Shown: piece after piece, positions 4,291 through 12,512 of the stretch | How positions within the stretch are numbered: the first letter of the stretch is position 1 | Layout: each line of letters opens with the position of its first letter | DNA from: Acidimicrobiia bacterium | GTDB lineage: Bacteria > Actinomycetota > Acidimicrobiia > Spongiisociales > UBA5794 | DNA length: 12,512 nt | Assembly (NCBI GenBank): GCA_013001485.1 | Contig: JABDMN010000004.1 | Coordinates: forward strand, 1 to 12,512 | Reading direction: 5' to 3' | Made by a program: the position numbers and the translations under genes | The notes under the pieces: generated by a model | What the model was told of the DNA's origin: nothing | What the model saw: the letters and a program-made list of their open reading frames with translations, nothing else | Database searches by the model: none

Positions 4291-4968
4291 TCAGTACGGC
4301 GGCCACGGTATGGCCGGGCGGTCATCGGGCGGTTGCGGATGCACAGGGTTGTCCAGGAAGGTGCGGACGCGCGAGGCCAGCGCGAGGAAGGCCTCTTCTC
4401 CCAGCGCCGTGGTGATCTCTTGGCCGAGTTCGCCTTCCAGTTCAATCCCTAGAGCCGCCACCGACTCGACGACGCCAGATGGCGCACTCTTTCCTGCAAA
4501 CGGCCACAGGACGGTTCGCAGCTTGTCGTCGGGATGGAATGTCAATCCGTGATCGACCCCAACCAGTCCCGTTGGAGTGCTGAGGATGTGGCCCACCTTT
4601 CGATCGGCGTTGTTGACAACGATGTCGAAAACGGCGAGCGGCCACAAGCGGCCGTCCGCGTTCGTGATGAGCGTCACGGCATCGAATTCCTCGTCGGCCT
4701 CGACGTAACGTTGCAGCGACCCTGGCCCGAATGGGCCGTCGCCCATCACGGTCTCGGGCACGATCTCGAGGTTCATGGCATCCGCCACACGGAAGGCAAG
4801 GATCTCTCGCCACGCAAGCGTCTCAGCCTCGAAATCCCACAGTGGGCGCTCGCCAGCCACGGGTTTGTAGACCACACGGGTGCCGTCTTCGGTCTCAGCG
4901 AGCAGCGTGGCGTTGGATGCGGCAACGAACCTGCCAACCACGGCCGTCACCGTGGGCTCCCACGTCAA
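4291..4968 (-). CDS. SCO1664-family protein, PI3/PI4-kinase-like fold
   Basis: A 225-residue protein matching the actinobacterial SCO1664 family. ASNATLL and VVYKPVAGERPLWDF (K35 is the likely nucleotide-binding Lys) form the N-lobe. FDIVVNNADRKVGHIL (N119-H127) resembles the catalytic loop of PI3/PI4 and HipA-like kinases, and VDHGLTFH (D139) takes the place of the metal-binding DFG. It may phosphorylate a protein or small molecule, but the substrate is unknown. I start at TTG 4968, whose TTGA overlaps the stop of the DUF3090 gene; GAGG lies 9 bases upstream and the family's N-terminus aligns there. GTG at 4950 is an alternative start. It is last in the three-gene minus-strand operon. Confidence 0.8.
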   Translation of the reverse strand: MTWEPTVTAVVGRFVAASNATLLAETEDGTRVVYKPVAGERPLWDFEAETLAWREILAFRVADAMNLEIVPETVMGDGPFGPGSLQRYVEADEEFDAVTLITNADGRLWPLAVFDIVVNNADRKVGHILSTPTGLVGVDHGLTFHPDDKLRTVLWPFAGKSAPSGVVESVAALGIELEGELGQEITTALGEEAFLALASRVRTFLDNPVHPQPPDDRPAIPWPPY

Positions 4969-5450
4969 GGTTGATGGCCTCGCAGGTCGCCGTTGGTGGT
5001 TGGGCACCGATGACCCTCCGGATCCATGGCGAGGCCACAACGAGGGCACGCCGGACGTCCAGCGGTGACGGCTTCCAGTGCCTCGGCAGCCATGGCACCC
5101 ATCAGGTTCGGCGTGATCTCGAACTGGACAGCCTCGGCTTCATCGTCAACAGGGACCAGAACGACCTCGAGGAGCGACGTGGAGTCGTTGAACTCGATGG
5201 CGATCTGACCGACCCGCCAGACCACGTCGCCGGGTGGTGCGAACCCGGCAGCGTCTCCCGACCCGGAGTCGGCCAGGTCGTTTCGGCCCAGCAACTCGAG
5301 CCCCGCATCGGCGAGAGCTTGAACCTGTGCCTTCTCGCACAAGAACCACCGGGTGGTGGTATCGGTTTCCAGCTGGATGTAGAAACGCCGGTCTCCTGGA
5401 ACACCCACGGCGCCTGCTGAGAAGAACGAGGCTTGACCGAGGTTGATCAT
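4965..5450 (-). CDS. DUF3090 family protein with C-terminal zinc-ribbon-like motif
   Basis: A 161-residue protein recognised as DUF3090 from GVPGDRRFYIQLE near residues 16-28, WRVGQIAIEF near 78-87, and the C-terminal GRPACPRCGLAMDPEGHRC. The last part holds C135, C138, H147 and C149, a CxxC...HxC set that could bind zinc. The function of the family is unknown. The ATG overlaps the stop of the phosphatase gene as ATGA, and its own TGA overlaps the next start as TTGA, so the three genes are very likely translationally coupled. No signal peptide or membrane segment is present. Confidence 0.88.
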   Translation of the reverse strand: MINLGQASFFSAGAVGVPGDRRFYIQLETDTTTRWFLCEKAQVQALADAGLELLGRNDLADSGSGDAAGFAPPGDVVWRVGQIAIEFNDSTSLLEVVLVPVDDEAEAVQFEITPNLMGAMAAEALEAVTAGRPACPRCGLAMDPEGHRCPTTNGDLRGHQP

Positions 5451-6040
5451 GAGGTCTGGTGGTTGACGACGGCGACAGTTGGGAACGAACCCGGATTCAG
5501 GATGACCTTCGACACGGAAGCGGGCCGAACATCGAGCCTGTGGACCATGTCGAGCGGCATGCCCAGGTAGTGGGCAAGGGTGACTCGGATGATGTCTGCG
5601 TGGGAGACGACGACTACTCGCTCCCTGGGGTGACGTTCGGCGATTTCCTCGATCGCGCTCACCGCGCGGTGCTGCGCCTCGGCGAGGGTTTCTCCGTCAG
5701 GGAACCGGAACCGTGCCGGGGCAACGAATAGGGCTTGCCAGGCCTTGAGCTTGCGCAACGAGTTCAGGGTTCTGCCCTGCCACGCTCCGTAATCGACTTC
5801 CTGGACCCGACGTTCGTTGCGGGCACGGGTCGAGATCTCACGAGAGATGATCGCCGCGGTCTCGCTACACCGCTGGACCGGGGACGTGTAGACGGTCGAC
5901 ACCTTTTGAGGTGCCAGAAACCGAGCGGTGGCCTCGGCTTGTTCTCGTCCCGCGTCAGAAAGGGCGACGCCGGGAATGCGACCTGTCAGCCGCGAGCCGG
6001 TTTCAGTGGTGACGCCATGACGGACGAGATACAGCTCCAT
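5447..6040 (-). CDS. Histidine phosphatase (MSMEG_4193 / phosphoglycerate mutase-like family)
   Basis: A 197-residue member of the histidine phosphatase superfamily, which forms a phosphohistidine intermediate. The RHG motif is at R7-H8-G9, the second Arg is in TSPVQRCSETA (R57), the EVDYGAWQG block follows at 81-89, FPDGETL at 113-119, and the second catalytic His in VVSHAD (H147). Length and block order fit the actinobacterial MSMEG_4193 family. It is first in the operon with DUF3090 and the SCO1664-like gene. In many actinobacteria this trio is followed by mshC of mycothiol synthesis; here a convergent GGT-family gene sits there. The physiological substrate is unknown. Confidence 0.88.
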   Translation of the reverse strand: MELYLVRHGVTTETGSRLTGRIPGVALSDAGREQAEATARFLAPQKVSTVYTSPVQRCSETAAIISREISTRARNERRVQEVDYGAWQGRTLNSLRKLKAWQALFVAPARFRFPDGETLAEAQHRAVSAIEEIAERHPRERVVVVSHADIIRVTLAHYLGMPLDMVHRLDVRPASVSKVILNPGSFPTVAVVNHQTS

Positions 6041-6096: not shown

Positions 6097-6627
6097 GTGA
6101 ATCCGAACGAGTTCCTGCGCCTTGCCCTCGACCCGCTTCGACTGTCGATTCTCGGCGCTGCCGCATCCGAATCGCTCGATCTCGAAGCAGTCGCTGCGGC
6201 TCATGGCGTCGATCGGAGGACGGTCCTCGAAGCCTATGGGCGCCTCCGGGCGGCGGGTCTGGTCTCTGAGGACGATCGCCTCGTCAGCGAGCAGCTCCAG
6301 ACTGTGGCGGCCGCACTTCCATCCGAACCCGTCGCCGATCCTGCCGTTGTCGAGGGGGAGTGGTCGGCGGGGGAGCGTGATGTCCTCGCCCGGTTCTTCT
6401 CGGGCACCCGACTCGAGTCCATCCCGACTCAGCACGCAAAGCGACTCGTGGTCCTGGAGCGCCTCGCGCAGGAGTTCGAGCCAGGCCTGCGCTATCGGGA
6501 ACAGGAAGTCAACTTCACCTTGCAGCTATTCCACGCCGACTATGCCGCGTTGCGCAGGTATCTGGTCGACGAGGGCCTCATGACCCGGGCCGACGGCGTC
6601 TATTGGCGGACCGGTGGCCGCACCTGA
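6097..6627 (+). CDS. DUF2087 protein with N-terminal helix-turn-helix, probable regulator
   Basis: A 176-residue protein with two parts. Residues 8-62 look like an ArsR-type winged helix (LDPLRLSILGAAASE, then AVAAAHGVDRRTVLEAYGRLRAAGLV). Residues 98-171 match DUF2087: FFSGTRLESIPTQHAKRLVV, LAQEFEPGLRYREQEVN, and ALRRYLVDEGLMTRADGVYW. DUF2087 is often found in such predicted transcription factors; its ligand is unknown. The GTG start at 6097 follows the -10-like TACGAT by 6 bases. The gene overlaps the SURF1 gene by 14 bases, so the regulator is probably co-transcribed with, and may control, the SURF1 and selenoprotein genes. Confidence 0.85.
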   Translation: MNPNEFLRLALDPLRLSILGAAASESLDLEAVAAAHGVDRRTVLEAYGRLRAAGLVSEDDRLVSEQLQTVAAALPSEPVADPAVVEGEWSAGERDVLARFFSGTRLESIPTQHAKRLVVLERLAQEFEPGLRYREQEVNFTLQLFHADYAALRRYLVDEGLMTRADGVYWRTGGRT

Positions 6628-7369
6628 TTGGTCCTTTGCGAAGATGCCGCGGTGGATCGTCGGCCATCTGGTTGCGCTCGCGGCAATCGCGCTGTTTGTC
6701 AGCCTCGGGTTCTGGCAATTCGACCGACTCGAGGAACGACGCGAGCTGAACTCGCTGGTCACGGCGCGGATGGAGTTGGACGTCACCAGCCTCGAGACGC
6801 TGACGGCCGGCTTCAGTTCCTTCGACGGCCTCGAGTATCGCAAGGCATTCGTCACCGGTGAGTACCTTGCCGACTCTGAGGTCATGTATCTGCTCGTGTC
6901 TCGCAATGGGCTCAGCGGCCATGTCCTACTGACCCCTTTGCAGGTCGAAGGCAGCACTCGGGTCGTGCTCGTGGAGCGAGGCTGGGTACCCGCCGACGCC
7001 GAAGGACCACCCGTGCCTGGTGCGGAGCCTCCTGACGGAACTGTGACCGTGACCGGCAGGCTCCTCGATGCTGACGATCGACGCCGGGACGTTGGATCCG
7101 TCGACCTCGAGACTCGACGGATCACGACGTTCGACCGACTGGTTCTCGATGAGGCCATCACGGGAGATCTACTCCCGATGATCTTGCGGCTCGAGTCGCA
7201 GGTGCCTGAGGCGCGGGCAGAGCCGGGACTGATGCCTGGACCGGTGCTCACCGAGGGGCCACATCTGGGATATGCCGTGCAATGGATACTCTTCGCGGGG
7301 GTGGTCTTGGTCGGCTATCCCGTGTTGCTCTATCGGACGGCGCGACGCCGGAATGCTCTGGCACCCTGA
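6614..7369 (+). CDS. SURF1 family protein, cytochrome c oxidase assembly
   Basis: A 251-residue membrane protein with the SURF1 plan: one membrane helix at each end (about 12-34 and 222-240) and an extracytoplasmic domain between. The N-terminal FVSLGFWQFDRLEERRELN matches the SURF1 helix and its exit (usual form LGxWQxxRxxxK), VVLVERGWVP is the central conserved GW block, and the C-terminal HLGYAVQW is the family signature. SURF1 proteins help insert haem a in haem-copper oxidases. The GTG start lies inside the end of the DUF2087 gene; ATG 6644 is an alternative start. The selenoprotein gene follows after 15 bases on the same strand. Confidence 0.88.
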   Translation: MAAPDWSFAKMPRWIVGHLVALAAIALFVSLGFWQFDRLEERRELNSLVTARMELDVTSLETLTAGFSSFDGLEYRKAFVTGEYLADSEVMYLLVSRNGLSGHVLLTPLQVEGSTRVVLVERGWVPADAEGPPVPGAEPPDGTVTVTGRLLDADDRRRDVGSVDLETRRITTFDRLVLDEAITGDLLPMILRLESQVPEARAEPGLMPGPVLTEGPHLGYAVQWILFAGVVLVGYPVLLYRTARRRNALAP

Positions 7370-7384
7370 GGCGTTATCCAGACT

Positions 7385-8362
7385 GTGACTCGAAGACTGC
7401 TCGCGCTCGCCATCATCCTCGGCTTTGTCACCGCGGCGTGTGGCGACGGAACGAACTCCGATACAGGCGCACCTCAGGTAGTCGCCGGCGTCGGGGCATT
7501 GCCGGCCGTTGAGGTGCTCGACGTTGCTACCAGCGACACGGTCGACGTCTCGACGCTGCTGCCTGCCGACAAGCCGTTGCTGGTCTGGTTCTGGGCGCCG
7601 CATTGACCGTTCTGCCGGCGCGAGGCGCCGGAAGTCGAGCAGTTCGCTCGACAGCACGCAGACCAGGTGACAGTCGTAGGACTGGGCACTCAAGACACCT
7701 TTGCCGAGGCACAGGAGTTCCGCGAAACCTACGGAACCACGTCGTTCACCATGCTGTGGGACCCAGGATTCGACTCGTGGTCGGCGCTCGGCATCCGGGG
7801 GCAGCCACAGGCGCTGCTGTTCTCGCCAGACGGGACAGCAATCGGGCAATGGGTGGGACCGTTTGATCCCGATGAGGTACTGGAGCTCTCCGAGGCCGCC
7901 CTCGACGACCCGTCCGCGTTCACAACCTCAACCACACAGCCGGACCCTGATCGAATCGCCGTGCCGGGTGATGCTGTCGCCGTGCATTACACCGGGTCCC
8001 TCGACGATGGTTCGGTGTTCGATTCCTCCGATGGCTCTCAACCGTTGACGTTTACGCTGGGTTCAGGCGCTGTCATCCGTGGGTTCGATCTGGCAGTTGT
8101 GGGTCTCAAGATCGGTAGTTCGAAGACGGTCACCATCCTGCCCGAGGACGGCTACGGCGCCCGCGATCCAGAGCGCATCGTCGAGGTGCCACTCACGAGC
8201 GCTCCCGACGGCATCTCCGTTGGTGACAGTGTCCAGTTCAGCGACGGCAGCCCGGGAACAGTGATTGAGATCGGTGCTGAGACGGTGGTGGTGGACGCGA
8301 ACCATCCGTTGGCGGGAGAGACGCTCACGTTCGAAATCGAACTGATCGGGTACGAGAACTAG
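7385..8362 (+). CDS. Predicted selenoprotein: lipoprotein thioredoxin (UPFC) fused to SlyD-type FKBP
   Basis: Read through the in-frame TGA at 7604, this frame encodes 325 residues. Residues 1-18 are a lipoprotein signal (MTRRLL, hydrophobic core, VTAAC) with C19 as lipidation site. Residues about 38-175 form a thioredoxin domain closest in pattern to mycobacterial MPT53/DsbF: LVWFWAPH-U74-PFC77, VTVVGLGTQD, and the cis-Pro loop GIRGQPQALLF. Residues about 187-325 are an FKBP prolyl isomerase (AVHYTGSLDDGSVFDSS, FTLGSGAVIRGFD) with SlyD features (YGARDPERIVEVP, DANHPLAGETLTFEIEL). U74 takes the nucleophilic Cys position, giving a UxxC redox site outside the membrane. Standard callers would report 7385-7606 and 7667-8362 as two genes. 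The alternative is a pseudogene or a base error. Homology on both sides of the TGA in one frame and the hairpin after it favour recoding. Confidence 0.75.
7604..7606 (+). other. In-frame TGA predicted to encode selenocysteine (Sec74)
   Basis: TGA replaces the first Cys codon of a CPFC redox motif, the one position in the domain where selenocysteine makes chemical sense. The following base is C (UGAC), a context seen at other bacterial Sec codons such as fdhF. TGA is the ordinary stop for most genes in this window, so a changed genetic code is unlikely. Selenocysteine insertion would need SelA, SelB, SelC tRNA and SelD encoded elsewhere in the genome. Confidence 0.72.
7608..7637 (+). promoter_or_regulatory. 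Candidate bacterial SECIS hairpin
   Basis: CCGGCGC at 7615-7621 pairs perfectly with GCGCCGG at 7625-7631, leaving a GAG loop at 7622-7624. Below it a G-A mismatch is followed by two pairs (7613/7633, 7612/7634), and 7608-7609 can pair with 7636-7637. The loop starts 16 bases after the TGA, at the short end of the range described for bacterial SECIS elements, and has G as its first base as that model requires. The hairpin lies in the coding sequence, as bacterial SECIS elements do. A similar 7-bp stem occurs by chance at 4213-4229, so the stem alone is not proof; its position is the argument. Confidence 0.6.
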
Positions 8363-8919
8363 CTTCCCGATTCCTTCCAAGCCTTCTTGCGAGCCTTGAA
8401 CTCGTCGAGTTCCGCGAAGTCGTAGATCTCTCCGACGTACGGCCAGTCGGGAACCACCGCTTCCCACCCGTCGGGCTTCAACCCGAACCGCTCAGCCAGC
8501 ACCCCTAGGTAGACCCTTGCCTTGTACTCACCAAATCCGGGGAGAGCCATCATCCGCTTCTTGATCGTCCCCGCCGTCATTTCGTCCCCGCTCCACAGTC
8601 CAGACGGCTCGCCGCCGTACTCCTCGACCAGAGAACTGCAAACTGCCTGGACACGTTTGGCCATCGACCCCGGGAACCTGTGAAGGGCCGGCTTCTCCTT
8701 GAAAATGCCCTCGAGTTCCTCGGGATCGTATGCGGCGATCGTTGCTGCATCCAGCTCTCCGCCCAGGCGCTCCGCCAGGAGGTACGGGCCGATGAATGCC
8801 TTCTCGATAGGGACCTGTTGGTACAGCACCAATCCAACGATCAAGGCGACGTCGTTGGATGCGAGTAACTCGTTGGCGGCAGGCTCGGCCGTATAGGGAA
8901 GAAGCTTGGGACGGGTCAT
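8359..8919 (-). CDS. HhH-GPD family protein (TIGR03252-type), putative DNA glycosylase relative
   Basis: A 186-residue protein matching an uncharacterised, mainly actinobacterial HhH-GPD family. LIVGLVLYQQVPIEKAFIGPYLLAERLG is the N-terminal helical part, then KPALHRFPGSMAKRVQAVCSSL, and the helix-hairpin-helix MALPGFGEYKARVYLGVLAERFG. HhH-GPD proteins bind DNA and include base-excision glycosylases; no iron-sulfur Cys cluster is seen here and catalytic activity is unproven. The ATG at 8919 lies 9 bases after the stop of the SRPBCC-like gene, so they form a pair. Its TAG stop overlaps the selenoprotein's TAG on the opposite strand in the palindrome CTAG (8359-8362). Confidence 0.85.
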   Translation of the reverse strand: MTRPKLLPYTAEPAANELLASNDVALIVGLVLYQQVPIEKAFIGPYLLAERLGGELDAATIAAYDPEELEGIFKEKPALHRFPGSMAKRVQAVCSSLVEEYGGEPSGLWSGDEMTAGTIKKRMMALPGFGEYKARVYLGVLAERFGLKPDGWEAVVPDWPYVGEIYDFAELDEFKARKKAWKESGS

Positions 8920-8928
8920 GGGGCGAAA

Positions 8929-9474
8929 CTAGCGCGATTGCGGAGACCGACTGACGGTGAGCCTTGTCGCTTCGTCGAGTCCGAAAACGACGTCGTCTCC
9001 ACCGGGGACCTCGGATTCCTCGATGATGCGGAGGAGCCTGCGGAAGAACCTTTCGAGGGCGGTTTCGGCGAGGCGATGGAACCCAAGCCGGTCAAGCGCC
9101 GCTCCGACCAGACCAAGAGGTGGCTGATAGAGGCCCAGGAGCGAGAACATGGTTCGTTCGGCGTCGATGGGCTCAGCTTCTAGATCTGCTTCGATCACGG
9201 GGAACAGCGACGAATGGTCTGCCGGGCTCCACCGGATCGAAACGCGACCGAGTGGTACCCGGCCCGGAATGTCGCGGAACCCTTTGACGTCGAGGTGGAC
9301 TTCCTTGGCGAGAGCAACACCTCCGACTTCGATGTCGAGGGCGGTCTCGTGCGCACCGGTCAGACCGGCCTCGGCGGCGCCCTCCAGGAGCGCGAGCGAC
9401 CGGTGCATGAGCAGTGAACGGACGTCGCCATAGGGTCTGTTGACAGCGTTGTACAGGTGAACGTGCTGTTTCAC
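8929..9474 (-). CDS. SRPBCC/polyketide cyclase-like ligand-binding protein
   Basis: A 181-residue soluble protein with a GTG start (MKQHVHLYNAVNRPYGDV). The pattern VPLGRVSIRWSPADHSSLFPVIEADLEAEPID, then LLGLYQPPLGLVGAALDRL and a long C-terminal helix (residues about 135-160), resembles SRPBCC-fold (START-like) proteins of actinobacteria. Such proteins have a deep hydrophobic pocket for lipids or other ligands. No catalytic residue can be named. It is upstream of, and probably co-transcribed with, the HhH-GPD gene. It is divergent from the PAP2 gene, with a 96-base gap. The family call is moderate: it could be an unrelated conserved hypothetical protein. Confidence 0.65.
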   Translation of the reverse strand: MKQHVHLYNAVNRPYGDVRSLLMHRSLALLEGAAEAGLTGAHETALDIEVGGVALAKEVHLDVKGFRDIPGRVPLGRVSIRWSPADHSSLFPVIEADLEAEPIDAERTMFSLLGLYQPPLGLVGAALDRLGFHRLAETALERFFRRLLRIIEESEVPGGDDVVFGLDEATRLTVSRSPQSR

Positions 9475-9570: not shown

Positions 9571-10305
9571 GTGACAGGCCAATTTCAGCCTGCGACGCCC
9601 CCGAGGGTGACCCGGCCCCGCGAACACGAGATGCTCGCCGAACACCGCTGGGCGCTGGTCGCATCCCTGGTTCTCTACCTCGCCGTTGGTGCCCTGTTCG
9701 TGCTGATGGCCTTTCCGTCGGGGGAGAAGTACGTGCAGTCGGTCGACGACTGGTGGTACGACTCGATCGACGTCATCCGGGTTGGCGCCGTTACCGCCCT
9801 TGCTCACGTCCTCAACGTGCTGGGGTCAACGTGGGTCACCGTGCCAATACGGGTGGTCACTGCGGGCTGGCTCGCACGAATCGGGCGCATCGAGGCGTTG
9901 ACGACCTGGATCCTGACGATCGTGGCCAGCGAGGCGATGATCTGGATCCTCAAGACCGCCTATCGACGCGAGCGTCCGCCTGATGGCCTGGTTGAGACAA
10001 CGAGTTTCAGCTTCCCTTCCGGTCATGCCATTGCGGGGACGGTCACTGCGATCGCTTTGGTGATCGTGCTCGTACCTGCCGGCCGGCGCCGCCGACGGTG
10101 GGAGGTCATCGCCGGGCTGTTTGCTTTCACCATGGGGATGTCACGGGTGTACCTCAACGCCCACTGGCTGTCGGACGTCGTTGCCGGGACCGTTCTCGCT
10201 GCGGCCTTTGCGATCGGGATCGCTGCACTCGTGCATGAAGTTGGCGATGCGGCGCACCGCCGACGCGTCGAGCGGGATCTTGAAGAGGCCGACGGCTCGA
10301 AGTGA
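9571..10305 (+). CDS. PAP2-family membrane phosphatase
   Basis: A 244-residue integral membrane protein of the PAP2 (phosphatidic acid phosphatase type 2) superfamily. All three catalytic motifs are intact: K128-x6-RP (KTAYRRERP), P149-S-G-H152, and S191-R-x5-H198-x3-D202. Hydrophobic segments lie near 28-48, 73-100, 111-127, 154-170, 178-190 and 203-221. Likely substrates are lipid phosphates or undecaprenyl pyrophosphate, with the active site facing outside. The GTG start at 9571 has GGAGG only one base upstream, which is unusually close, so ATG 9631 is possible. The stop overlaps a potential GTG start of the ATPase gene. Confidence 0.85.
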   Translation: MTGQFQPATPPRVTRPREHEMLAEHRWALVASLVLYLAVGALFVLMAFPSGEKYVQSVDDWWYDSIDVIRVGAVTALAHVLNVLGSTWVTVPIRVVTAGWLARIGRIEALTTWILTIVASEAMIWILKTAYRRERPPDGLVETTSFSFPSGHAIAGTVTAIALVIVLVPAGRRRRRWEVIAGLFAFTMGMSRVYLNAHWLSDVVAGTVLAAAFAIGIAALVHEVGDAAHRRRVERDLEEADGSK

Positions 10306-10330
10306 CCGAGGTCGACGCCGTTCGTACCAT
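10302..10330 (+). promoter_or_regulatory. Candidate promoter for the P-type ATPase gene
   Basis: GTGACC at 10302-10307 (four of six matches to TTGACA) is separated by 17 bases from TACCAT at 10325-10330. Seven bases after the -10 comes ATG 10338, so transcription could begin at the start codon and give a leaderless message. The -35 overlaps the stop codon of the PAP2 gene. This is pattern matching only; the GTG at 10302 might instead be the ATPase start codon. Confidence 0.3.
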
Positions 10331-10337
10331 GGCATTG

Positions 10338-12512
10338 ATGGACTGGCACGCTGAAACCGTTGGCGCCGTGGCGGCCGCACTGGACACCGACCCACAGGAT
10401 GGCCTCGCTCCCCGAGACGTCGCCGCCCGCCTCGAGCGATATGGCCCGAACACCATCGGTGAGGAATCCGGGCCCTCGCGACTTCGCATCTTCCTTGCTC
10501 AGTTCGCAGACGTGCTCGTCTGGGTTCTGCTGGTCGCGGCGTTCATCAGCGGTGTGATCCTCGGCGAGATCATCGACACGGTGGTCATCCTGGCGATCGT
10601 CGCTCTCAACGCTGTGATCGGCTACACCCAGGAGGTCCGCGCCGAAGGCGCTCTCGCCGAGTTGAAAGAGATGACAGCGCCCGATGCCGTTGTGATCCGC
10701 GGCGGGACTCCGTCTCGAATCTCCGCCGACGACGTCGTACCGGGGGACCTGTTGAGGCTGGAGGCCGGCGATCGGGTGGCGGCCGACGCCCGCCTGATCG
10801 AGGTAGCCCATCTCGAAGCGGACGAGGCATCTTTGACCGGCGAGAGCATCCCCGACTCCAAGTCGACTGAACCGGTGCCGGCTGACACTTCGCTGGGCGA
10901 CCGCACATCGATGGTCTACGCAGGGACCGTCATGACTACAGGCCGAGGCCTCGCCATCGTGACCGCGACGGGCACTTCCAGCGAGGTGGGCCGCATCGCC
11001 GACCTTTTGTCGATTGAAGAGCCGCCCACCCCGCTTCAAGTCGAGCTCGACAGGGTGGGTAAGCGCATCTCCGTTCTGGCCGGGTTGATTGCCGTGATCA
11101 TCTTCGGCCTCGGCCTCCTGCGGGGCTTGGAACCAGAGACGATGTTCCTGACCGCGGTCGCGCTGGCGGTAGCCGCGATCCCCGAGGGTCTGCCGGCCGT
11201 GAACACCATCACGCTGGCACGGGGAGTCCGCAAGATGGCTCGTTCGAATGCGATCGTGCGGCGCCTTCCCGCTGTGGAGTCCCTCGGAGCCGCCTCGGTG
11301 ATTTGCACCGACAAAACAGGAACCCTGACCAAGAACGAGCTTGCCGTGCAGCACCTCGGCTTTGCGGGTCTGTCGATTCCGGTGGGGACGACGGGTGATT
11401 CCCGTCTTGTCCGCTACGCCCACATCGCGACTTTGTGCAACGACGCCGTGCGAACTGCGACGGGCTTCGTCGGCGATCCGACCGAGGTAGCGCTGCTGCG
11501 TTCGGTGGAATCGGCGGTCGCCGACATCGAGCAACTCCGGCGCGATCAACCTCGCCTCGATGAGTGTGGCTTCGACTCGTCTCGTAAACGCATGTCGACA
11601 CTCCACCGTGACCACGACGGCTATTACCTGGCGATGAAGGGAGCCCCAGAAGTCGTCATCGGTCTGTGCACGCAGTATGAGGAACCCGACGGAGCGGCCC
11701 CCCTTGCCGCTGCCGAAAGCCATGCCGCTCTGGCGGAAGCTGAGGACTTCGCTGAGAACGGGCTGCGCACTCTGGCCTTCGCATACAAGAGACTGGACAG
11801 GAAGCCGGATGACCTCGAGGCCGAGGAGACCGGCTTGGTTCTCGTCGGTGTCGCGGGGATGAGCGATGAGATCAGGTCTGAAGTACCCGCCGCAATCGAC
11901 GAGGCCCGGGCTGCCGGTCTCCGGGTGGTGATGGTGACTGGAGATCACATGGTCACCGCTCGCGCAGTCTCCACCGAACTGGGGCTTGTCGATGAGGCTC
12001 GAGGCGTCATGGCTGGTTCAGAGCTTCGTGGAACCTCCGTTGAGGCCCTGACGTCGGTGGTTACGGACTACGGCGCCTACGCCCGCGTCGATCCGGCCGA
12101 CAAGGTCAAGCTTGTCGACGCCTGGCAGGACCATGGCGAGATCGTGGCGATGACGGGTGACGGGGTGAACGACGCGCCGGCGCTTCGGGCAGCCGACATC
12201 GGCGTGGCGATGGGCTCAGGGACCTCAGTGGCGAAGGAAGCGTCATCGCTGGTTCTTGCCGACGACAACTTCGCCACGATCGTCAAGGCCGTCAGAGAGG
12301 GCCGCACGATCTTCTCGAATCTCAAGAAGGTCATCTACTTCCTGTTGTCGGCCAACGTGAGCGAGGTCCTGGTGATGCTCATCGGGTTTCTCGCCTTCAC
12401 GTCGCTCGAGGAGCCGTTGCTCGCCGTCCAGATCTTGTGGATCAACCTGGTCACTGACGGTCTGCCCGCGATCGCCCTGGGAATCGACCGTCCGACACCG
12501 GGACTCATGGAC
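10338..12512 (+). CDS. P2A-type Ca2+-transporting P-type ATPase (3' end cut by window)
   Basis: 725 residues are visible; the frame is open at the right edge, and the family usually has about 880-920, so most of M7-M10 is missing. Motifs in order are TGES (167-170), PEGL in M4 (282-285), the phosphorylation site D325-KTGTLT, KGAPEVV, VTGDH, and GDGVND (607-612). The SERCA-like Ca2+ ligands are present: E283 in M4, N673 and E676 in M5 (ANVSEV), and N703, T706 and D707 in M6 (NLVTDGLP). This points to Ca2+ (possibly Mn2+) export and away from heavy metals or H+. I start at ATG 10338 because MDWHAETVGAV fits the family N-terminus and a -10-like element sits 7 bases ahead. In-frame GTG 10302, overlapping the PAP2 stop, and ATG 10329 are alternatives. 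Confidence 0.92.
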   Translation, partial: MDWHAETVGAVAAALDTDPQDGLAPRDVAARLERYGPNTIGEESGPSRLRIFLAQFADVLVWVLLVAAFISGVILGEIIDTVVILAIVALNAVIGYTQEVRAEGALAELKEMTAPDAVVIRGGTPSRISADDVVPGDLLRLEAGDRVAADARLIEVAHLEADEASLTGESIPDSKSTEPVPADTSLGDRTSMVYAGTVMTTGRGLAIVTATGTSSEVGRIADLLSIEEPPTPLQVELDRVGKRISVLAGLIAVIIFGLGLLRGLEPETMFLTAVALAVAAIPEGLPAVNTITLARGVRKMARSNAIVRRLPAVESLGAASVICTDKTGTLTKNELAVQHLGFAGLSIPVGTTGDSRLVRYAHIATLCNDAVRTATGFVGDPTEVALLRSVESAVADIEQLRRDQPRLDECGFDSSRKRMSTLHRDHDGYYLAMKGAPEVVIGLCTQYEEPDGAAPLAAAESHAALAEAEDFAENGLRTLAFAYKRLDRKPDDLEAEETGLVLVGVAGMSDEIRSEVPAAIDEARAAGLRVVMVTGDHMVTARAVSTELGLVDEARGVMAGSELRGTSVEALTSVVTDYGAYARVDPADKVKLVDAWQDHGEIVAMTGDGVNDAPALRAADIGVAMGSGTSVAKEASSLVLADDNFATIVKAVREGRTIFSNLKKVIYFLLSANVSEVLVMLIGFLAFTSLEEPLLAVQILWINLVTDGLPAIALGIDRPTPGLMD

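Follow-up and report, generated by a model that had tools for sequence, protein, structure and literature searches.

Within the window analysed here, a 12,512-nucleotide stretch that is contig C92 of an Acidimicrobiia draft bin (G000), a gene for a thioredoxin-like lipoprotein is interrupted by an in-frame TGA exactly at its active site. The locus raises the question of whether this codon is read as selenocysteine (Sec) or marks a damaged gene, and, if the former, what kind of protein the whole frame would encode.

A reading frame continuing across a TGA codon

The gene (7385..8362, + strand) extends from a predicted GTG start to a TAG stop (8360–8362), and reading of the ORF and its translation shows that the frame at 7385–8359 (+) contains a single internal stop, the TGA at 7604..7606 (+). 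One frame interrupted at this position had been described in the first-pass annotation, and sequence and coordinates agree with that description. Read-through gives a product of 325 residues, predicted to be a selenoprotein lipoprotein, with Sec at position 74 (U74), Cys77, a lipobox Cys19 and the Pro141 of a ‘GQP’ motif. The TGA lies in the motif WFWAPH-U-PFC, and the TGC at 7613..7615 (+) encodes Cys77, the putative resolving residue of the UxxC motif. The N-terminus is a signal peptide with a lipobox (VTAAC; 7385..7441, +), the Cys19 of which is presumably lipidated; a loose pattern detected a lipobox-like motif in 71/80 Sec relatives (first 80 of 105 stretches).

A thioredoxin-like domain (PF00578/PF08534/PF00085; 7505..7906, +, ends taken from the structure model) with a UPFC active site and a DsbF/MPT53/ResA-like fold is followed by an FKBP-type peptidyl-prolyl isomerase domain (7955..8359, +), with SlyD/SlpA-like fold matches. 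The Pfam match to PF00578 (AhpC-TSA; 43.7 bits, cut-off 26) covers residues 49–151 with the TGA inside, bearing out the earlier claim that homology extends across this codon without a change of frame; the segment 5′ of the TGA matches no Pfam family on its own, and the segment 3′ of it gives AhpC-TSA at 24.1 bits. An in-frame UGA flanked on both sides by same-frame homology, as used to recognise bacterial selenoproteins, is therefore present. In the predicted structure (mean pLDDT 88, pTM 0.62, the latter making the relative placement of the two domains less certain than each domain itself) a helix (residues 75–90) is modelled directly after U74.

A 23S rRNA gene, of which the 3′ end is present, and a 5S rRNA gene open the contig (window 1–330), and a SURF1-family gene (6614..7369, +) lies directly upstream of the Sec gene. 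SURF1 is found near the Sec gene in only 3, and gamma-glutamyltransferase in 2, of the first 80 stretches, so that this neighbourhood is not general. The gamma-glutamyltransferase of the window is 88% identical to that of a same-genus bin (G001) over residues 122–511, on which basis C92 was assigned to its genus. Gamma-glutamyltransferase and a Sec thioredoxin also share one contig in G055, G062, G068, G087 and G093, and at L124 SURF1, histidine phosphatase, DUF3090 and gamma-glutamyltransferase genes are all near a Sec thioredoxin.

Conservation of TGA and exchange with Cys codons

A public genome collection was scanned with a 30-base DNA pattern, WFWAPH-[TGN]-P-x-C, in which the third base of the active-site codon was left free. 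Among 120 matches in 105 stretches this codon is TGA in 113, TGC in 4, TGT in 3 and TGG in none. A TGA copy is present in 98/105 stretches and two TGA copies are present in 15/105. By hand count, 78/105 record titles name Acidimicrobiia, Acidimicrobiales or Acidimicrobiaceae; the remainder are mostly Actinomycetota, Actinomycetes, Ilumatobacter and Microthrixaceae, with five given just as ‘bacterium’ and one as Acidobacteria (L191). Cys homologs at the UGA codon, a further mark of bacterial selenoproteins, are thus represented by 7/120 matches and additionally by protein homologs carrying WFWAPHCPxC. The first-pass annotation had proposed that TGA encodes Sec in place of the nucleophilic Cys and had pointed to the codon found in orthologs as the way to check this; the distribution of TGA (113/120) and Cys (7/120), together with selC and selD in the same bin (see below), supports that proposal.

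The same counts bear on the possibility of a pseudogene or sequencing error, in which a Cys codon would have decayed to a stop and left the gene dead or truncated. A single base separates TGC or TGT from TGA, the window derives from a draft metagenome bin, and one relative (L094) does have further TGAs in frame close to the active site and is probably decaying or error-ridden. Against this, TGA occupies the same codon in 113/120 matches from many assemblies, the frame is open on either side of it and a covarying RNA hairpin lies just downstream, making a defective gene highly improbable. Inactivating mutations in relatives, named earlier as potential counter-evidence, are rare in the part downstream of the site: the frame remains open for at least 80 residues past it in 109/113 TGA copies, and of the four that close earlier three (L142, L159 and one L188 copy) begin 108, 162 and 160 bases, respectively, from the end of the stretch, the fourth being L094.

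A tree was built from 97 rows (81 Sec, 16 Cys), comprising the window and ten Cys proteins in addition to rows from the first 80 loci, over 138 columns; rows that were identical, contained N or were cut short were dropped before counting, as were, for the tree, those with <80 residues after the site. On this tree the distribution of Sec and Cys requires 6 changes, at least 4 of them forced by supported branches, many other forks being unsure because of the small number of columns. The nearest row to the window is L151 (63% identical; fork support 94/72). At L167 a Cys copy (TGT) that lacks the second of the two hairpins described below is placed beside a Sec copy (support 95/85), which looks like a recent Sec-to-Cys change.

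Among the matches listed for 99 genomes (the window's own and 98 relatives), nine other close matches to the thioredoxin part (L024–L032) all have WAPHUP at the site, eight of them belonging to a single other family (f7) and the ninth to the doubtful same-genus bin G001. In the window's own family (50 genomes), the matches listed include a close thioredoxin-part match only in the window's genome and in G001, the other 48 having just FKBP-part matches or weaker thioredoxins; the Sec gene is patchy in this family. L030 (G075) and L031 (G001) share 97.3% identity along 2082 bases, their bins having been placed in different families, and one of them is probably misbinned. Because of this near-identity L031, the same-genus ortholog, was discounted as proof of vertical descent.

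An RNA hairpin downstream of the UGA codon

A predicted bacterial SECIS hairpin (7635..7651, +) with apical loop AGUUC (7641–7645) is located within the coding sequence. The bSECIS model, as given in the available part of PMC13188914, has a loop of 3–9 nt, a stem of 4–16 bp, a G at loop position 1 or 2, a distance of 16–37 nt from the UGA and an energy <= -7.5 kcal/mol. The hairpin, with 6 pairs (7 in the computed fold) and 34 nt from UGA to loop, agrees with this model, the energy figure applying to the entire 7604–7660 segment and not to the hairpin alone; this 57-base segment folds at -26.3 kcal/mol (z -2.11), and 8/200 shuffles fold as well.

Pairing was counted in the 105 stretches plus the window, giving 100 distinct Sec and 7 distinct Cys sequences, and was compared with a null of 1000 draws of synonymous codons, weighted by codon usage in the more 3′ parts of these genes. 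The inner four pairs form in 96/100 Sec and 0/7 Cys sequences (null mean 6.8, maximum 15) and all six in 85/100 Sec and 0/7 Cys (null mean 1.4, maximum 6), far above the synonymous null, so that conservation of the protein does not explain the hairpin. The pair joining positions 32 and 42 downstream of the UGA is A-U in 81 sequences, G-C in 11, C-G in 3, U-A in 2 and G-U in 1, with 2 mismatches, although the sequences are related to each other and these pair changes are not independent events. As position 32 is in mid-codon, changes at this pair alter the amino acid (Glu, Gly, Ala or Val) together with the third position of the partner codon. GCT is used for the Ala of the 3′ arm in 82/99 sequences vs 78/731 Ala codons further downstream. 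The SECIS constraint appears strong enough for one amino acid position to vary with RNA pairing, a natural case of constraint imposed by RNA on protein.

Another hairpin, the first after the TGA (7615..7631, +; CCGGCGC-GAG-GCGCCGG), is not Sec-specific, since at least 5 pairs form in this region in 75/76 Sec and 5/6 Cys sequences from the first 80 loci. It was rejected as the main SECIS: its loop begins 15 nt from the UGA (model minimum 16) and it forms in 5/6 Cys sequences too. At the Rfam gathering score only rRNA was matched in the window, and two weak matches within 7300–8500 at a loose threshold were taken as chance. Neither the SECIS hairpin nor the FKBP domain is included in the first-pass annotation.

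Other Sec thioredoxins were seen in the course of these comparisons. Loci L070–L076 (G081, G067, G074, G086, G054, G092 and G061), from another family of the order, represent a further subfamily with WSP[FL]UETCR; L070, L071, L072, L074 and L076 have GAGC-RGUUC-GCUC at the place of the hairpin, which is not drawn in the lowest-energy fold of L070. The window's own bin contains a second thioredoxin-like lipoprotein frame with an active-site TGA (L008, G000:C26:5607-6047, -; WAEWUGTCRRELP), and FWAEWUxxC frames like it are found in the relatives G025, G002, G036, G060 and G073.

Selenium machinery

Bin G000 consists of 2,248,434 bases in 405 contigs and is 82.85% complete and 5.67% contaminated, the latter meaning that contigs may be mixed. 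It carries a tRNA-Sec gene (selC; C226, anticodon tca; 75.9 bits, gathering 47) and a selD gene (C237) with its own TGA in GAG-U-ACK; UxxK is a known Sec site motif of selD (PMC13188914, available part). The earlier suggestion to look for selA, selB, selC and selD in the same genome is therefore borne out for selC and selD, while neither selA nor selB was detected in this 82.85% complete bin; matches below the selB cut-off in the same genome were not accepted as SelB. Across 99 genomes (own included) selA is over the cut-off in 81, selB in 82, selD in 90 and tRNA-Sec in 74. selA and selB lie next to each other in the same-genus bin (C420:6072-7301 and 7325-9079), and the proteins flanking selAB there (L208 ORFs 9626-10885 and 4885-5598) had no match in G000 in a search run without a positive control, a hint that the entire selAB neighbourhood is missing from this bin. 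The absence of selA and selB is likely an assembly gap. Two tRNA-Sec matches over the cut-off were noted in single bins (G016, G020, G041, G050, G070, G084 and G089), the second being weaker (53-56 bits) in G050, G070, G084 and G089.

The tRNA also bears on whether TGA might be reassigned in this organism, to Trp, Gly or another residue, or read through without selenium. Read-through of TGA by itself leaves the residue unnamed. Nevertheless, the tRNA-Sec present has the anticodon tca, TGG occurs in 0/120 matches with Cys codons as the sole alternatives seen within TGN, and TGA ends other genes, e.g. SURF1 at 7367–7369; reassignment is extremely improbable. Selenocysteine is, from these sequence comparisons, almost certainly the residue at the TGA.

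The FKBP domain and its fusion to the thioredoxin

The C-terminal half has Pfam and fold evidence of its own: FKBP_C (PF00254) matches at residues 192–320 (78.4 bits, cut-off 21.1), and FKBP, SlyD and SlpA entries are its fold matches, with 5i7q and 4dt4 at the top. PF00254 above the gathering score is thus found together with an FKBP fold, the combination by which an FKBP-type prolyl isomerase is identified.

This fusion is seen in 0/114 other loci, including three thioredoxin copies so near the limit of their stretch that a fused FKBP would go unseen. One metagenome protein (P0001; 227 aa, on a 986-base contig) has the downstream part of the thioredoxin and then FKBP, in the same order as in the window, with 56% identity across 70% of the query in an alignment running through the linker. 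The start of P0001 lies after the active site; the gene caller may have begun past a TGA, or the contig may simply end there. A protein search with P0001 gave no other match covering >70% of it among the best 120 of 926. The Sec thioredoxin–FKBP fusion, found in one other protein only, therefore looks real but rare, and because of this rarity the second function rests on the identity of the domain.

Such rarity could also mean that the selenoprotein is genuine and its FKBP part incidental, an accidental fusion lacking coupled function or a joint made in assembly. The zero count in 114 other loci fits this, as does the finding that matches to the FKBP part and to the thioredoxin part stand apart in relatives. 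P0001, an independent metagenome protein, has the same domain order and shares the linker over its 56% identity (70% of the query), and after the TGA the window's reading frame runs open through both domains; an incidental FKBP part is accordingly possible but rather unlikely.

Proposed function

The gene very likely encodes an exported, Sec-dependent thiol-disulfide oxidoreductase lipoprotein fused to a prolyl isomerase, with selenium incorporation and activity predicted from sequence. The UGA at 7604–7606 would be recoded by SelB and Sec-tRNA(Sec), directed by the hairpin at 7635–7651. Sec at a nucleophilic position has a lower pKa and attacks a client disulfide faster. Thiol-disulfide exchange by the thioredoxin half is probable: the TlpA/DsbF-like N-terminal half would make, break or reshuffle disulfides via a Sec74–Cys77 selenenylsulfide, Cys77 resolving Sec74 and the Sec74–Cys77 bond then being reset by a partner, with any direction of electron flow a matter of prediction. 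Carried on the same lipid-anchored chain, the FKBP domain would probably isomerise prolyl bonds, putatively in the same clients, and the whole protein would thereby catalyse folding outside the membrane by two activities. The odds that prolyl isomerase function is really coupled in this way are about even.

A wider reading, given an equal chance of being right or wrong, is of a single-chain exported selenium-dependent folding machine in which Sec oxidoreductase and prolyl isomerase act jointly on secreted proteins, and which may have come from an Acidimicrobiia-wide expansion of Sec extracytoplasmic thioredoxins that in some cases stand as adjacent pairs. Relatives of the selenium half occur widely in this little-studied class and point to an exported Sec thioredoxin family among its uncultured members. 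Standard gene prediction would probably truncate such genes at the TGA, and P0001 does begin after the active site. The fusion would also give direct access to two questions: the reason for using selenium in disulfide chemistry outside the cytoplasm, and the way in which disulfide exchange is linked to prolyl isomerisation.

Comparison with known systems

Solved structures matching the N-terminal half are Mycobacterium tuberculosis DsbF (3ios), MPT53 (1lu4) and ResA entries. DsbF and MPT53 share the thioredoxin fold (TM-score by target 0.85 and 0.80, respectively) and match in sequence (9.2e-16 and 3.7e-13), but are without an FKBP domain and presumably carry Cys at the site where the window gene has Sec. 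P0079-type FKBP–thioredoxin fusions likewise combine both domains in one lipoprotein-like chain, but FKBP comes first, the active site has Cys rather than Sec and the thioredoxin domain is a different one (CIPCKQMKP).

Actinobacteria are one of three groups described as rich in selenoprotein families (PMC1794560, available part), and SelA and SelB are reported from most sponge symbiont bins (PMC5649159, available part). Nothing on this Sec thioredoxin clade was found in the available parts of PMC9312934, PMC5029168 and PMC12013277. Among titles and abstracts of the open-licence literature no paper on Acidimicrobiia selenoproteins was found, and no title dealt with this clade or with a selenoprotein–peptidyl-prolyl isomerase. 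Domain fusions of thioredoxin-fold selenoproteins are described in PMC2398784, with none to FKBP seen in the available part.

The NCBIfam models WAxxUGC (NF041054), Rcas_1661 (NF041057) and HUIPC (NF047660) also describe thioredoxin-like proteins with an active-site Sec, but with different motifs; the window and its relatives are far below the cut-off of, or unmatched by, the first two and are unmatched by the third, and no NCBIfam selenoprotein model is above its cut-off for the window, L029, L024 or L008. That the protein is undescribed, as first suggested, holds in so far as no such model was passed and the clade was not found in the literature searched, and fails in so far as UxxC thioredoxin-like selenoproteins are already listed (PMC13188914, available part).

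That paper lists 119 selenoprotein families or subfamilies, PF00578 UxxC and PF08534 UxxC among them, and its main text, as far as available, makes no mention of FKBP, peptidyl-prolyl, lipoprotein or actinobacteri. The closest entry is the PF00578 UxxC ‘Prx-like thiol:disulfide oxidoreductase’ of its Table 1 (available part), with which the window protein shares PF00578 above the gathering score (43.7 vs 26 bits) and UxxC (UPFC), and from which, compared by listing, it differs in being a predicted lipoprotein of Acidimicrobiia with WFWAPHUPxC and an FKBP domain. UxxC thioredoxin-like selenoproteins are already known, and any novelty would lie in the WFWAPHUPxC clade and in the fusion to FKBP.
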